Below, one piece after another: positions 1,207-31,498 of a stretch of DNA of 64,000 nucleotides. The translations under genes and the position numbers were made by a program. Source of the DNA: Paenibacillus sp. FSL R5-0766. GTDB lineage: Bacteria; Bacillota; Bacilli; Paenibacillales; Paenibacillaceae. The DNA lies in NCBI RefSeq assembly GCF_037971845.1, contig NZ_CP150227.1, forward strand, positions 1,736,001 through 1,800,000. Reading direction: 5' to 3'. The notes under the pieces are model-generated. The model was not told the origin of the DNA and ran no database searches. It saw only the letters and a list, made by a program, of their open reading frames with translations. How positions within the stretch are numbered: position 1 is the stretch's first letter; the number at the start of each line of letters is the position of its first letter.

Positions 1207-2124
1207 ATGAAAGCTGTGATTTGCACCAATTACGGACCGCCAGAAGTGCTACAGATGAAAGAGATGGAAAAGCCTAAACCGAAAGACCATGAGGTTTTAA
1301 TTAAAGTTTTTGCAGCTACTGCACATATTGGTGATACCCGTATTCGAAGAGCTGATCCATTCTTGGTGAGACTTGTATTTGGCATGCTCAAGCCCAGGAA
1401 AAATTTAATACTTGGCCTGGAAATATCCGGTGTGATCGAGTCGGTAGGGAAAGACGTACAATCCTTTAAGGAAGGAGACAAGGTCTTTGGGCTTACAGGG
1501 TTTTGTGGGGGTTATGCCGAATACATTTGTTTACCTGAAAAAGTGAAAAACGGAACCGGTGAAAAAAAAGGAATGGTTGCAATAAAGCCCAACCATTTAT
1601 CCTACGAAGAAGCTGCGGTCGTTCCATCGGGAGCACTTACAGCTTTGAAAAATTTGCAAAAAGCAAAGATCAAGCCAGGTCAGAAAATATTGATCAATGG
1701 AGCATCCGGTAGCCTTGGGACGTATGCAATTCAACTTGCGAAATACTATGAGGCAGAAGTCACAGCGGTGTGCAGTAAAAGTAATTTTGGATTGGTAGAA
1801 TCTATAGGAGCGGATAAAGTAATCGATTATACCGAAGAAGACTTTACGCAATCAGAAACGAAATACGATATCGTTTATGATGCCGTAATAAAAGCCAAAC
1901 CCTCACAATGCCAAAAAATCCTAACACCCAATGGTGTTTTTCTAAACAACAGTCGCCTTCCGAAAATGGAAGAAGCCGATTTACTCTTTCTCAAAGAGTT
2001 GATCGAGGAAAACAAACTAAAACCGATCATCGATCGAACCTATGCTTTGGATGAAATTGTGGAGGCCCACCGATATGTGGATACCGGGCGTAAGAGAGGC
2101 AATGTGGCAATAACGATCAGATAG
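1207..2124 (+). CDS. NAD(P)-dependent alcohol dehydrogenase / quinone oxidoreductase-like (MDR family)
   Basis: A 305-residue medium-chain dehydrogenase/reductase. The N-terminal GroES-like domain starts MKAVICTNYGPPEVLQ and carries the typical GLEISGVIESVG strand. The Rossmann fold has NGASGSLGTYAIQLAK around residues 164-179, the nucleotide-binding loop of zinc-independent quinone oxidoreductases. No structural-zinc Cys cluster is seen, so zinc-free NADPH-dependent reduction of quinones or enones is expected. The length is slightly short of the family's usual 320-340. The start at 1207 is set by AGGAGG at 1195-1200; an upstream in-frame extension to 1114 has no ribosome binding site. Cytoplasmic, apparently a single-gene unit. 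Confidence 0.85.
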   Translation: MKAVICTNYGPPEVLQMKEMEKPKPKDHEVLIKVFAATAHIGDTRIRRADPFLVRLVFGMLKPRKNLILGLEISGVIESVGKDVQSFKEGDKVFGLTGFCGGYAEYICLPEKVKNGTGEKKGMVAIKPNHLSYEEAAVVPSGALTALKNLQKAKIKPGQKILINGASGSLGTYAIQLAKYYEAEVTAVCSKSNFGLVESIGADKVIDYTEEDFTQSETKYDIVYDAVIKAKPSQCQKILTPNGVFLNNSRLPKMEEADLLFLKELIEENKLKPIIDRTYALDEIVEAHRYVDTGRKRGNVAITIR

Positions 2125-26905: not shown

Positions 26906-27868
26906 ATGGAGGCTAAATTGGAGGGTAAGCGGATCCCGCAGGCAAACGTTGGGAACAAGCTGGATAAAAAGAGAAAAAAACGCTACAAACAGCCATGGAT
27001 TCTGCACTTTATGGTGTTGCCGGCGGCCATTATGGTCTTTATATTTTCATACATTCCGATGTCCGGGATTTTGATGGCATTTCAAGATTATAAACCTGCA
27101 CTGGGATTTTTCAATTCCGAATGGGTAGGACTGAAACACTTTAGGTACATGTGGGAAAATGATTATTTCCTGCAAATTACGTGGAACACGTTGTTCTTTG
27201 CCTGTTCCAAGATTGTCATGAACCTGATTATTCCGTTTGTATTCGCCTTATTACTTAATGAGGTACGGAAGATGGCGCTGAAAAGAACGATTCAAACGCT
27301 CGTGTATCTTCCTCACTTTCTGTCCTGGGTTACGCTATCAGGCATTTTGATCGACATTCTGGCCCAGACGGGTATTGTCAATCAGTTTCTGGTTTCGGTA
27401 TTCGGCATCAAGCCGATCTTTTTCCTGGGGGATGGCAGCTGGTTCCGATTCACGATTATCGCGAGTGATGTCTGGAAAGAGTTTGGATTCAACACAATCA
27501 TCTTCCTCGCGGCACTGTCTGGCATAAACCCTGCACTTTATGAAGCGGCTGAAGTGGACGGCGCAGGACGCTGGAAGCAAACGATGTATATTACCATCCC
27601 GGCACTTATTCCGATTGGGATCGTCATCGCCACCCTGGCACTGGGGAATGTGCTTAACGCCAACTTTGACCAGATCTTTAACTTATATAGTCCGTTGATT
27701 TACCAACAAGGAGATATTATCGATACGTTTGTGTATAGAGAAGGTCTGCTTAGTGGGCAGTTCAGTTTTGCTACCGCTGTGAATCTGTTCAAATCGGTCA
27801 TCAGCCTGATCCTGATTGTGATCTCGTACCGACTGGCTTACCGATTCGCCGGATACCGAATTTTCTAG
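26906..27868 (+). CDS. sugar ABC transporter permease, LplB-like
   Basis: A 320-residue six-helix permease of the CUT1 MalF class. The cytoplasmic loop EAAEVDGAGRWKQTMYITIP is the EAA motif that docks the ATPase. The N-terminus is positively charged (about 35 residues) before the first helix. AGGAG lies seven bases before the ATG. First gene of a two-permease operon; no ATPase gene is nearby, so a shared MsmX-type ATPase is expected. Confidence 0.92.
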   Translation: MEAKLEGKRIPQANVGNKLDKKRKKRYKQPWILHFMVLPAAIMVFIFSYIPMSGILMAFQDYKPALGFFNSEWVGLKHFRYMWENDYFLQITWNTLFFACSKIVMNLIIPFVFALLLNEVRKMALKRTIQTLVYLPHFLSWVTLSGILIDILAQTGIVNQFLVSVFGIKPIFFLGDGSWFRFTIIASDVWKEFGFNTIIFLAALSGINPALYEAAEVDGAGRWKQTMYITIPALIPIGIVIATLALGNVLNANFDQIFNLYSPLIYQQGDIIDTFVYREGLLSGQFSFATAVNLFKSVISLILIVISYRLAYRFAGYRIF

Positions 27869-27884
27869 AAAGGAGGACGAACGA

Positions 27885-28757
27885 ATGTATCATAAAACGA
27901 TGCCTTACCGCATATTCAGCATATTCAACAATGTGTTACTGACCATCCTTTCACTGCTCTGCTTGCTGCCTTTGTATCACTTGCTCATGGTATCACTTAG
28001 CGCATCTGCACCTGCAAATGCTGGTCTCGTCACGTTCTGGCCAATTGGATTTACACTGGAGGCGTATGCCAAGACGTTCGCCAATACCAACTTCCTCTCC
28101 TCCTTATGGGTATCTGTGGAGCGGACGGTACTTGGTACTGGACTTGCGTTAATCGTTAATACGATTGCAGCCTATGCGCTTTCCAAAGAGACGCGGGTGT
28201 TCCGCGCACGTAACATCTATCTATGGTATTTTGTCATCACGATGCTGTTTAGCGGTGGCCTCATTCCGGGATATATCCTGATTCTGAAGCTGGGACTGAT
28301 GAACACATTGCTGGCCTTGATTCTGCCGGGATTGGTTGCGGTGTTTAACATTATTCTGTTGCTGAATTTCTTCCGTACCGTTCCGAAGGATCTGGAAGAA
28401 GCGGCATTTATCGATGGCGCAGGGCACTTTAAAACGTTTATCAAAATCTATCTGCCTGTCTCCGTACCTGTTATTGCAACGGTTTCGCTCTTCATGATGG
28501 TTGGGCATTGGAACGCATACTTTGACGGGATTATCTACATCCGTGATGCGGAGAAGCTGCCACTCGCGACATTCATGCAGACGATCATCGTGCAGGCCGA
28601 TATGTCGAAGCTTGATCCAGAAGCCGTGAAGAACCTGTCCCAACGGACCATTCGGGCTTCGCAGATCTTTATCAGCGCGCTGCCGATCCTGCTTGTGTAT
28701 CCGTTCCTGCAACGGTATTTCGTGACTGGGATTGTAGTTGGTGCTGTTAAGGAATAG
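27885..28757 (+). CDS. sugar ABC transporter permease, LplC-like
   Basis: A 290-residue six-helix permease of the MalG class, partner of the permease encoded 16 bases upstream. The EAA motif reads EEAAFIDGAGHFKTFIKIYL, and the C-terminus ends in VTGIVVGAVKE, typical of LplC/YtcP. AAAGGAGGACG precedes the ATG. Confidence 0.92.
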   Translation: MYHKTMPYRIFSIFNNVLLTILSLLCLLPLYHLLMVSLSASAPANAGLVTFWPIGFTLEAYAKTFANTNFLSSLWVSVERTVLGTGLALIVNTIAAYALSKETRVFRARNIYLWYFVITMLFSGGLIPGYILILKLGLMNTLLALILPGLVAVFNIILLLNFFRTVPKDLEEAAFIDGAGHFKTFIKIYLPVSVPVIATVSLFMMVGHWNAYFDGIIYIRDAEKLPLATFMQTIIVQADMSKLDPEAVKNLSQRTIRASQIFISALPILLVYPFLQRYFVTGIVVGAVKE

Positions 28758-28806
28758 TTGAATGTAGGGAATGAATAGGATTGTAAAATGGAGTCACTGA
28801 ACTGGG

Positions 28807-28832
28807 GAAGGCCAGGGAGGTGGCTTCTTTTT
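28807..28832 (+). terminator. terminator after the permease operon
   Basis: GAAGGCCA and TGGCTTC pair, with one unpaired G, around GGGAGG, then TTTTT follows. Confidence 0.7.
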
Positions 28833-28944
28833 GTGTATGGATGAAGAACGTTGCATATATGTAGTGTATTACCTTTATTTAAATAAAATGGTACATTGGA
28901 AGTTGATGAAAGAGTTGTTTTATTAAGCCGAGAGGATGAATACG

Positions 28945-30564
28945 ATGATGGATCAAAACTTGAAACAAGCAATAGTCAGGGGAGAAACTTCGCTAGGCAT
29001 TGAATTTGGATCCACACGAATCAAAGCTGTACTTATTGATCCCCATTTTAATACCATCTGTTCCAGCAGTTATGAGTGGGAAAATCAATTGATTGGCGGT
29101 TACTGGACTTACCCTATGGATGAAATGATTCATGGGTTGCAACAAACCTATCATCAATTAAAGCAAGAGATTGAAACAAATTATGGTGTAACGATACAAA
29201 AAATTGGCTCAATCGGATGTTCTGCTATGATGCAGGGTTACATTGCACTCGATCAAACAGGGGAGTTATTGGTTCCGTTCCGTACATGGCGCAATGCCAC
29301 AACGGGTAAGGCTGCATCAGAGCTAACCGAGAAATTCCAGTTTAAAATTCCAGAGCGTTGGAGCATCGCACATTTGTATCAAGCGATTTTGAACGGAGAA
29401 GAGCATGTCACTAACATCAATTATATTACGACGTTATCGGGTTACATACATCGGCTGTTAACTGGCAGTAAAGCTATGGGTATAGGGGATGCCTCAGGTA
29501 TGTTCCCAATTGATGAATCCACACTGGAATACCATGAAGATATGTTGAAGAAGTTTGACGATTTAATTGCCGACAAAGGCTACCCGTGGAATCTTAAAGA
29601 TATTTTACCTAAAGTGTACACTGCCGGTGAACATGCCGGATATCTTAGTGAAGCTGGTGCCCGACTGTTAGATCCATCAGGTAACTTGGAATCCAATATT
29701 CCACTGTGCCCTCCGGAAGGCGATGCTGGAACAGGCATGGTTGCTACGAATAGTGTCCAAAAACGTACGGGTAACATCTCCGTAGGTACATCGATTTTTG
29801 CCATGATTGTATTAGATAAAAACCTATCTACGGTATACCCTGAGATTGACATCGTGACTACACCTGATGGCAATCCGGTGGCTATGGTTCTTGCGAATAA
29901 CTGCTCCAGCGATATTAATGCCTGGGTCGACTTGTTCCGTGAGTTTTATGAGGCTATGGGACAGAAGCCCGATATGAACCAGTTATTCAGTGTATTGTTC
30001 AATGAAGCATTGAAAGCTGACGCTGATGGCGGTGGCTTACTGAGCTATGGCTACTATTCAGGCGAGAACATTACAGGAATTGCAAAAGGTCGTCCGTTGT
30101 TTGTACGTTCTCCGGAGAGCCGCTTCAATCTGGCAAACTTTATGAGAGTCCATCTGTTTGCTGCGTTTGCTGCACTAAGGCTCGGGCTGGATATTCTTAC
30201 ACAGAAGGAGCACGTAACGATTGAGCACATTTGGGCGCATGGCGGATTGTTCAAAACCCCACGAGTTGCTCAAAAAATGTGCGCATCCGCACTGAATATT
30301 CCCGTGTCGGTCATGTCTACCGCGGGTGAAGGCGGCGCATGGGGAATGGCTATTTTGGCTTCCTACATGGTTAATAAGCAGCAGCACGAGGGTTTGGCGG
30401 AGTACCTTACCACCAAGGTGTTTATTGATGCAGAAGGACAAGAGGTTTCTCCGAATAGCGCGGATGTGAATGGATTTGCCTTGTTCATGGAGCGTTACAC
30501 GGAAGGACTGGCCATTGAGCAGTCAGCAATAGATCATTTCGTGGAAAATGCGAAGAAAGCCTGA
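28945..30564 (+). CDS. FGGY-family carbohydrate kinase (AraB-like)
   Basis: A 539-residue sugar kinase. GIEFGSTRIKAVLID (about 18-32) is the N-terminal phosphate-1 motif. The segment RTWRN, then PEGDAGTGMVATN, and the C-terminal AHGGLFKTPRVAQKM (with GEGGAWGMAIL) fit the FGGY C-domain of ribulokinase-like proteins. It phosphorylates a sugar or polyol in the cytoplasm; the substrate is unknown, and no aldolase or isomerase gene is adjacent. The start at 28945 is chosen because AGAGGA ends eight bases upstream; 28936 is too close to it. A terminator separates it from the transporter genes, so it may be regulated separately. Confidence 0.85.
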   Translation: MMDQNLKQAIVRGETSLGIEFGSTRIKAVLIDPHFNTICSSSYEWENQLIGGYWTYPMDEMIHGLQQTYHQLKQEIETNYGVTIQKIGSIGCSAMMQGYIALDQTGELLVPFRTWRNATTGKAASELTEKFQFKIPERWSIAHLYQAILNGEEHVTNINYITTLSGYIHRLLTGSKAMGIGDASGMFPIDESTLEYHEDMLKKFDDLIADKGYPWNLKDILPKVYTAGEHAGYLSEAGARLLDPSGNLESNIPLCPPEGDAGTGMVATNSVQKRTGNISVGTSIFAMIVLDKNLSTVYPEIDIVTTPDGNPVAMVLANNCSSDINAWVDLFREFYEAMGQKPDMNQLFSVLFNEALKADADGGGLLSYGYYSGENITGIAKGRPLFVRSPESRFNLANFMRVHLFAAFAALRLGLDILTQKEHVTIEHIWAHGGLFKTPRVAQKMCASALNIPVSVMSTAGEGGAWGMAILASYMVNKQQHEGLAEYLTTKVFIDAEGQEVSPNSADVNGFALFMERYTEGLAIEQSAIDHFVENAKKA

Positions 30565-30712
30565 GAATCATATTTCTTGAACAGAGGAAATTGGAACGAA
30601 GCCCGTTGCCTACACTATGCTGCCCTGTTATAATTTCGATATATCTATCGTATAGGGGGTTATGACGTGGCAATATGGATGATGCCGGATTGCTCGTTCG
30701 CTAGAAAGCCTT

Positions 30713-30856
30713 ATGCAAAGCCTGAATAGGGGCGGACTTTGTGTAGGGCGCGACAAAATGAGATTGTTTGCCCTGGAATCAACATCAACATAATGTTACA
30801 TCCCGCAGGCTTTGCACCTTATTTGTTCTTCCAATAAAAATAAGGGGCTGAACGCC
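30713..30856 (+). promoter_or_regulatory. structured leader of the FusB-type gene, possible antibiotic-responsive attenuator
   Basis: A perfect 11-bp long-range pairing joins TGCAAAGCCTG (30714-30724) and CAGGCTTTGCA (30806-30816). Inside, GGGC with GCCC and ACAA with TTGT form one hairpin (30746-30773). Just downstream, CCTTATTT (30817-30824) pairs perfectly with AAATAAGG (30838-30845), covering the AAGGGG ribosome binding site (30842-30847) of the gene at 30857. A short open frame of 26 codons spans 30713-30793. This arrangement (leader peptide plus alternative stems plus hidden ribosome binding site) is the standard layout of translational attenuation for ribosome-targeting antibiotic resistance. 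Confidence 0.6.
30758..30793 (+). CDS. putative leader peptide
   Basis: ATG 30758 encodes MRLFALESTST and stops at TAA 30791-30793, 64 bases ahead of the FusB-type gene. AGGG at 30745-30748 could be its ribosome binding site. An in-frame upstream ATG at 30713 would extend it to 26 residues (start MQSLNRGG). A ribosome stalled on it would disrupt the closing stem at 30806. Evidence is positional only. Confidence 0.4.
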   Translation: MRLFALESTST

Positions 30857-31498
30857 ATGCAAACACCATTTATTCAGAATCATCAATTTAATTATATTCA
30901 AAAACAAGCTGATTTCCTGCTGAAAACGCTACGCTCGGTTGTGGATCCCAAAGTATTGGAAACCGTCCGTTATACGGTCGGCACCAATGCGGTGAGCATC
31001 TTCGATGACCTCACTCCGGAGCAGAAGCAACTGCTGGAGCAGTTATCCACGTATGAGACGACACATGAATTGCAGACGTATCTGAACCAGCTCGAATCAT
31101 ATCTGATTCCATTTCCGCAAGTATCAGCGAAGCAGATTCAGAAGCTGTTTCCTAAGGCGAAGAAGCTTAAATTGCCGGATCTGGAGTTAGTCGATTACGC
31201 ACGTACTACCTATCTGAGATGGACTGACATTGCGACGAGCCGTTTGTTCATCGTGTACCCGTACGAAGGCAGATTCCTCGGTATTGAGGGACGGCTTACA
31301 GCCACGAACAAAAAAGGGTACTGCATGTTCTGTCATCGCCATCAGGAGCTCGGATTCTTCAACGTGAAGACCAAGGCTCATTCGGCGGATAACTTTTCTT
31401 CCATTGCCCAGTACGTATGCATGGATAACACAGCTTGCAACCATAGCATTACCGATATCACTATGCTGGAGAAGTTTCTTCTCTCGACAGTAAAATAA
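30857..31498 (+). CDS. FusB-type elongation factor G-binding protein (fusidic acid resistance family)
   Basis: A 213-residue two-domain protein with the same length as FusB/FusC. The N-terminal helical domain (1-80) starts MQTPFIQNHQFNYIQKQ. The C-terminal domain carries a treble-clef zinc site with C156-x2-C159 (CMFCHRH) and C188-x5-C194 (CMDNTACNH), as in FusB. These proteins bind EF-G and release it from the ribosome, giving resistance to fusidic acid; in Paenibacillus the chromosomal copy may be intrinsic. AAGGGG nine bases before the ATG sits in a stem of the leader. A strong terminator follows. Confidence 0.9.
   Translation: MQTPFIQNHQFNYIQKQADFLLKTLRSVVDPKVLETVRYTVGTNAVSIFDDLTPEQKQLLEQLSTYETTHELQTYLNQLESYLIPFPQVSAKQIQKLFPKAKKLKLPDLELVDYARTTYLRWTDIATSRLFIVYPYEGRFLGIEGRLTATNKKGYCMFCHRHQELGFFNVKTKAHSADNFSSIAQYVCMDNTACNHSITDITMLEKFLLSTVK

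Follow-up and report, generated by a model that had tools for sequence, protein, structure and literature searches.

The window analyzed here, a stretch of 64,000 nucleotides from Paenibacillus sp. FSL R5-0766 (contig NZ_CP150227.1), contains a gene, fbp, whose product can be assigned as an EF-G-binding protein (FBP), in agreement with the initial annotation. The protein scores 77.4 bits against PF07299 (cut-off 27.1) and 41 bits against PF16571 (cut-off 27.2), and five solved sequences match it, namely Far1/FAR1 (9ghc, 4e4b, 4adn, and 2mzw) and a putative fusidic acid resistance protein (2yb5). It falls below the NCBIfam exception models for the named clinical alleles FusB, FusC, FusD, and FusF, the highest score, 107.5 bits for fusD, comparing with a cut-off of 450, and the other three likewise lying below their cut-offs. 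According to two reports, FusB binds EF-G and the ribosome, and the fusB gene of plasmid pUB101 is regulated by attenuation (PMC12493156, PMC12008383). In front of fbp lies a structured leader preceded by an upstream open reading frame (uORF), the parts of which are listed in Table 1. Farther upstream, positions 26906-30564 hold two ORFs that by reading resemble ABC transporter permeases and an FGGY carbohydrate kinase, seemingly with no relation to the leader.

Table 1. Features of the fbp leader and its surroundings (positions in the window).
Feature	Coordinates	Strand	Basis or remark
Promoter-like site TTGCCT-17-TATAAT, TG before the -10	30606..30634	+	consensus scan
uORF ribosome binding site AGGGGG	30654..30659	+	sequence
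uORF, GTG start, MAIWMMPDCSFARKPYAKPE*	30667..30729	+	sequence; runs through arm A
Arm A	30710..30724	+	30710-30720 pairs with B, 30714-30724 with D; pairings mutually exclusive
Arm B, local partner of A	30737..30747	+	covariation count
Inner hairpin	30745..30774	+	fold; GGGCG...CGCCC type in relatives
Arm D, distal partner of A	30806..30816	+	covariation count
Arm E, 5' side of the hairpin over the fbp ribosome binding site	30817..30824	+	fold, covariation
Arm F, 3' half of the E:F hairpin	30838..30845	+	holds AAGG of the Shine-Dalgarno AAGGGG (30842-30847)
fbp (213 aa), encoding the EF-G-binding protein	30857..31498	+	PF07299, PF16571

Both stems of the initial annotation are exact. The 11-bp stem joins perfect complements at 30714-30724 (TGCAAAGCCTG) and 30806-30816 (CAGGCTTTGCA), and the 8-bp stem does the same at 30817-30824 (CCTTATTT) and 30838-30845 (AAATAAGG). 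The minimum free energy fold of 30713-30859 (147 bases) contains both helices together with the inner hairpin that had also been described; at -49.7 kcal/mol (z -3.82) it is more stable than any of 200 dinucleotide shuffles, and a perfect stem of at least 11 bp arose in six of 1000 dinucleotide shuffles of the 144-base region. The structure of the window leader thus exceeds chance on a single sequence, and its conservation in relatives provides strong support. A consensus scan found one promoter-like site in the window where shuffles gave 1.4, so that this site taken alone is no evidence of a promoter; in 109 of 128 leaders a -10-like hexamer lies 14-70 nt before the start of the uORF, compared with 981 of 2560 shuffled sequences. 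Between 30500 and 30900 the window has no terminator-like site, and premature termination was therefore rejected as the mode of control.

The relatives of fbp comprise 55 named loci, including the fragments L054 and L055. The DNA upstream of the gene is strongly conserved in L001-L047, which belong to Paenibacillus, Saccharibacillus, and one other member of the Paenibacillaceae. The conserved parts are the uORF with its purine-rich site, the arms A (TGCAAAGCC type), B (CTTTGxxT), and D (GGCTTTGC), and a CCTTATT...AATAAGG hairpin. When 40 leaders were folded together with RNAalifold, A:B was chosen and not A:D, whereas the window leader folded alone adopts A:D. The leader is larger and more general than first noted, and it includes the uORF and a second partner, arm B, for its 5' arm.

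Covariation was counted in 64 diverse leaders aligned with MAFFT and compared with 500 shuffles. Pairing is retained in 97.9% of cells for A:B (27 double-change cells), in 92.7% for A:D (double changes in six of nine pairs), and in 91.4% for E:F (18 double-change cells, with slid partners giving up to 19). The covariation scores of 0.275 for A:B (0.202 shuffled), 0.117 for A:D (0.086 shuffled), and 0.148 for E:F (0.054 shuffled) were reached by none of the 500 shuffles; since these ignore kinship, we take the scores as strong indications rather than formal tests. The number of pairs with double changes, three in A:B and three in E:F, was reached by 289 and 104 of the 500 shuffles, respectively, as few pairs vary. 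The stems first described, A:D and E:F, are thus borne out in relatives, as is the proposed masking of the EF-G-binding protein gene's ribosome binding site by a structured leader. Because arm A is unable to pair with B and D at once and both pairings are supported, the alignment indicates an RNA with two states. Positions used in only one of the two pairings vary and positions common to both vary little, as expected for one arm with two partners. Two mutually exclusive helices and a helix covering the Shine-Dalgarno sequence, all covarying beyond shuffles that ignore kinship, form the arrangement of a translational attenuator. Arm D is degenerate in L219, L227, and L228. A divergent subgroup (L147, L150, L252, L253, L255, and L256) carries AACAACGGCGGTTGTT between A and B, and L147 has a long extension of its A:D helix. 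In L035 and similar leaders of groups B and C, a block, TTTCTAATAA, is complementary to early fbp codons (TTATTAGAAA); this pairing appears in some folds and was not seen in the window group.

The distribution of the leader was surveyed with two covariance models, R1 for the leader core and R2, a broader model; the E-values of both are rough. At E<=0.01, R1 matched 306 of 392 genomes of the order and 97 of 398 genomes of the class. R2 matched 21 of 398 genomes of the phylum. One match outside the class, in G985, is convincing (R2, E 3.8e-13) and stands before an ORF resembling CD3324, a second target family introduced below. Ten other genomes outside the class gave R2 matches at E 8e-4 to 1e-2; their loci (L240-L249) have neither a D-E motif nor a CD3324-like motif, and these matches are probably due to chance. 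Among the more distant relatives of fbp, R2 found no leader at L048, L049, L051, L052, and L054; at L053 its only match was weak and on the opposite strand. At L050 (Bacillus sp. FJAT-49736) it matched positions 1280-1404 (E 8e-28), leaving about 600 bases before FBP, a spacing that would fit a CD3324 gene between the two. A blastn search with window positions 30640-30900 found no match in plasmids or phages, and an origin from a mobile element was rejected on this ground, although R2 does detect one plasmid-borne copy, described below.

The leader is indeed linked to a FusB-type gene, as had been proposed, but the link is not specific, as the leader also precedes genes of the CD3324 family (NF040785). 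The three proteins tested all score above the cut-off of this family, which consists of small proteins that weakly resemble Mor/HTH proteins at scores under the Pfam cut-off. Bacillus subtilis, used as a control genome, also contains a CD3324 match, perhaps YraL judging from the name of a Bacillus sonorensis relative. Targets were counted in a fixed set of 230 Bacilli genomes using all 83 R2 matches, all 90 PF07299 matches, and 76 NF040785 matches (those over the cut-off plus four strong fragments, with weaker ones dropped). The leader stands before CD3324 in 53 cases and before FBP in 22, accounting for 75 of the 83 matches; of the eight before neither, seven have E-values of 3e-5 or worse and the eighth is in G099, where the match reads into a broken CD3324 frame. 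Wherever CD3324 is followed by FBP within 900 nt, the leader is present (27 of 27), and each of the 18 FBP genes in this set that belong to the window's family is directly preceded by it. Neither arrangement is found at 41 of the 90 FBP genes, and 23 of the 76 CD3324 matches are without a leader. The window's own genome has three strong R2 matches, for one FBP and two CD3324 genes. G095, G482, G555, and G587 have leaders but no CD3324 match at E<=0.001, and G116, G530, and G546 have a leader before CD3324 but lack an FBP match, so that neither protein is obligatory for keeping the leader.

The uORF was followed through 129 leaders, a dereplicated gathered set rather than a random sample, in which motif labels assign 66 to FBP and 53 to CD3324; nine of the 10 unassigned leaders read as CD3324 by translation, and the tenth, L198, has CD3324 in two pieces. 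By the score used, 128 of the 129 have a purine-rich site before the uORF, and in 128 a uORF with its binding site starts 24-52 nt before A and stays open into A, compared with 413 of 2580 cases after the upstream bases were shuffled. The single exception is L128, described below. These leaders thus have a predicted ORF, preceded by a Shine-Dalgarno sequence, that overlaps a regulatory arm, a further property of translational attenuators. Arm A is read in all three frames across the leaders (72, 48, and 8), and together with the near-universal uORF this argues that A is preserved at the RNA level and that an open frame into it is maintained, while the peptide at A appears not to be kept. In the window group, the uORFs of FBP leaders stop within or just after A. 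The third codon position is more variable than the second in five of seven uORF sets, equal in one, and less variable in group C; nonsynonymous differences exceed synonymous ones in six of the seven, and synonymous change upstream of A is seen at some codons, such as Leu7, Pro8, and Ala12 of the main CD3324 set. In this comparison one CD3324 leader (L207) fell into an FBP-labeled set. Such a pattern would give weak support to selection on the uORF peptide, and a specific stalling peptide is not established by it. A third short ORF near -64 (MxxPAGFAPY..), considered as a means of melting E:F, was rejected as its ATG is absent in several relatives.

The energetics of the switch were modeled with ViennaRNA in 126 of the 129 leaders. 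A:D is favored over A:B in 96 of the 126, and the two differ by no more than 5 kcal/mol in 71. Opening of the Shine-Dalgarno sequence costs 6.2 kcal/mol in A:D and 8.1 in A:B; it is dearer in A:B in 100 of the 126 leaders and dearer in A:D by more than 1 kcal/mol in 10, with values of 6.4 and 7.3 for the window leader. The higher cost in A:B may arise because the 3' end of D is then able to extend the Shine-Dalgarno hairpin, which in the printed model structures persists in both states. Compared with shuffled interiors, the natural leader interior favors A:D (mean z -2.25, below -1 in 85 of 102 leaders), with a mean z of -0.27 for A:B; the arms were located in 102 of 113 leaders for this test, and D was misplaced in six leaders, where differences exceeded +10 kcal/mol.

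A ribosome footprint was then modeled in the 119 of these 126 leaders that have all three ribosome zones. The mean opening cost was 7.0 kcal/mol with the ribosome far upstream, 5.8 with it 15-22 nt before A, 7.6 with it on A, and 6.6 with no ribosome. The footprint 15-22 nt before A is cheaper than the one far upstream in 90 of 119 leaders (by more than 1 kcal/mol in 67, and dearer by more than 1 in seven), than the one on A in 94, and than the absence of a ribosome in 82; with a ribosome near -18 nt, the modeled probability of A:D is about 0.94. For the window leader the corresponding costs are 7.5, 6.3, 9.2, and 6.4 kcal/mol, so that there a waiting ribosome gains nothing over none. The initial annotation had suggested that breaking the long stem could free the second, and on this the model gives a mixed answer: when 13 nt of arm A were blocked, the opening cost fell in 26 of 48 leaders (from 6.6 to 4.6 kcal/mol in that of the window), rose in 17, and did not change in five. 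The cost with this block stays at or above 3 kcal/mol in 47 of the 48 (1.0 in L032), and a block of 32 nt raises that of the window leader to 7.9. Modeled differences of 1-5 kcal/mol are within the error of such models, and the average shifts with ribosome position are 1-2 kcal/mol and of mixed sign among leaders. On average, the energy model weakly favors opening when a ribosome waits just before A.

We propose, with moderate confidence, that the leader is a conserved cis-acting RNA of Bacilli that would act as a translation-sensing attenuator controlling the translation of FBP and CD3324. The uORF would be translated into arm A, which may pair locally with B or distantly with D, and D abuts the hairpin predicted to hide the Shine-Dalgarno sequence of the target gene. 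As A:B appears to extend further upstream than A:D, a ribosome held about six codons before A would block A:B and still permit A:D, and formation of A:D would remove D from the extended Shine-Dalgarno hairpin. Impaired elongation on the uORF would in this way raise expression of the target. The pattern of opening costs and the further reach of A:B favor this order of events, in which holding a ribosome before A would lead to A:D and open the gene further. From the nature of the target protein we infer that the inducers would be inhibitors of EF-G or other inhibitors of the ribosome.

The initial annotation had placed the sensing ribosome elsewhere, on a short frame, MRLFALESTST (30758-30793), where stalling would break the long stem and free the fbp Shine-Dalgarno sequence. 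This frame and the stems exist, and the attenuation reported for pUB101 fusB offers a precedent; however, the frame sits between the arms and stops 12 bases short of D, its nearest purine run (AGGG, about 9 bases before the ATG) is weaker than the uORF site, and a comparable ATG ORF of at least eight codons is present in only 16 of 48 FBP leaders, three of which encode exactly this peptide. As the frame is not conserved among relatives, we rejected it as the leader peptide and give this explanation almost no probability. A leader that merely sets mRNA stability or a low rate of translation, with no switching, is also very improbable: E:F alone would hold translation low, but a static leader would not need two competing, covarying helices on one arm.

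More serious is the possibility that the switch has the opposite sign, with A:D and E:F together as the OFF state and a ribosome on A, for example during slow termination of the uORF, or the A:B pairing turning the gene ON. This scheme resembles classical attenuators, in which a ribosome occupying the 5' arm opens the structure; it also fits the ends of the window-group uORFs and the lowered cost seen on blocking A in just over half of the 48 leaders, above all in L032. The footprint on A tells both ways, being cheaper than one far upstream in 49 of 119 leaders but dearer by more than 1 kcal/mol in 49 and cheaper by that margin in 23, and the greater opening cost in A:B speaks against an ON state formed by that pairing. 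Complementarity between AGGTGC and GCACCT after B in several leaders might provide a release helix, but by an uncounted reading it is not seen in other groups and was rejected as a universal feature on that account. On balance, we consider the opposite sign unlikely. Less likely still is an RNA bound by a protein or small ligand, as in autoregulation by CD3324 or FBP or in a riboswitch, with the uORF secondary. The weak Mor/HTH resemblance of CD3324, the binding of FusB to EF-G and the ribosome, and the conserved loop sequences of groups B and C (for example GGCGAUAC and UAUCGUUUCUAAUA) would be compatible with it, but neither CD3324 nor FBP is obligatory for the leader and the uORF is near-universal, which makes this explanation improbable.

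A leader RNA family that is real, conserved, and apparently undescribed is thus identified, and on comparative grounds it is most likely a translation-sensing attenuator. In Rfam release 15, neither the window nor 20 relatives had a match at gathering score; the family would be a bacterial cis-regulatory RNA like the leader and riboswitch families of that release, but is distinct from them at this level. Window positions 30600-30900 gave one chance-level row (mir-124, E 4.5), and four relatives gave nothing at E<=0.5. Our literature search found no paper on the leader or on CD3324 and no link in print between CD3324 and EF-G-binding proteins. The names searched are absent from the main text of two motif-discovery papers, one of which lists eight uORF candidates and names two others among them.

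In erm and cat attenuators, the ORF of a leader peptide overlaps one arm of competing hairpins that hide the Shine-Dalgarno sequence. The leader described here shares the ORF over a competing arm and the hidden Shine-Dalgarno sequence but differs in that the arm is read in three frames, the peptide varies between groups, and the targets are FBP and CD3324. Like the vmlR-type leaders of antibiotic-resistance ABC-F genes, it would exert leader control over an intrinsic ribosome-protection gene in Bacillota; unlike them, it has other targets and no terminator-like site at window positions 30500-30900. The closest parallel by target is the pUB101 fusB attenuator of Staphylococcus aureus, which likewise combines a uORF with its own ribosome binding site, an alternative mRNA structure, and a target of the FusB/FBP family. 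In the pUB101 sequence (L262, 300-640) the fusB leader ORF, MLKDITYLKLLDLEYKMLCS, is followed by stretches that read as complementary to its end. The pUB101 leader differs in serving a plasmid resistance gene and in having no R2 match (E<=10, default filters).

The pair of targets, FBP and CD3324, is unexpected, and through the common leader and joint operons the uncharacterized CD3324 family gains a functional link to EF-G-binding proteins. A broader reading, which we offer tentatively as possible rather than probable, is that the leader serves as a Bacilli-wide sensor of failing elongation, in which the position of the ribosome on the uORF would turn on FBP and its HTH partner CD3324; these genes would then form an intrinsic translation-stress regulon and a possible origin of fusidic acid resistance genes. 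If the leader were a general sensor of stalled translation, this would account for the silence of an intrinsic ribosome-protection gene until it is required.

Several individual loci show unusual arrangements. A leader-CD3324-FBP unit was found by R2 on a 355-kb plasmid of Pseudalkalibacillus hwajinpoensis (L264, 956-1090 and downstream), and L209 (G608:C4:174766-174897 and 175531-175662) has two tandem copies of leader and CD3324, with equal scores, followed by FBP. In L198, L205, and L182 (G462, G099, and G446) the leader is kept before a broken or split CD3324 frame, which in L198 is in two fragments. In L128 (G008, 1501-1630, minus strand), counted under FBP in the motif labels, the leader precedes a gene resembling a serine hydrolase or class C beta-lactamase, for which the best named models score far below their cut-offs. 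This protein begins with NPFIRKHQ, a stretch similar to the beginning of FBP, as though the leader and the first codons of FBP had been captured by another gene.
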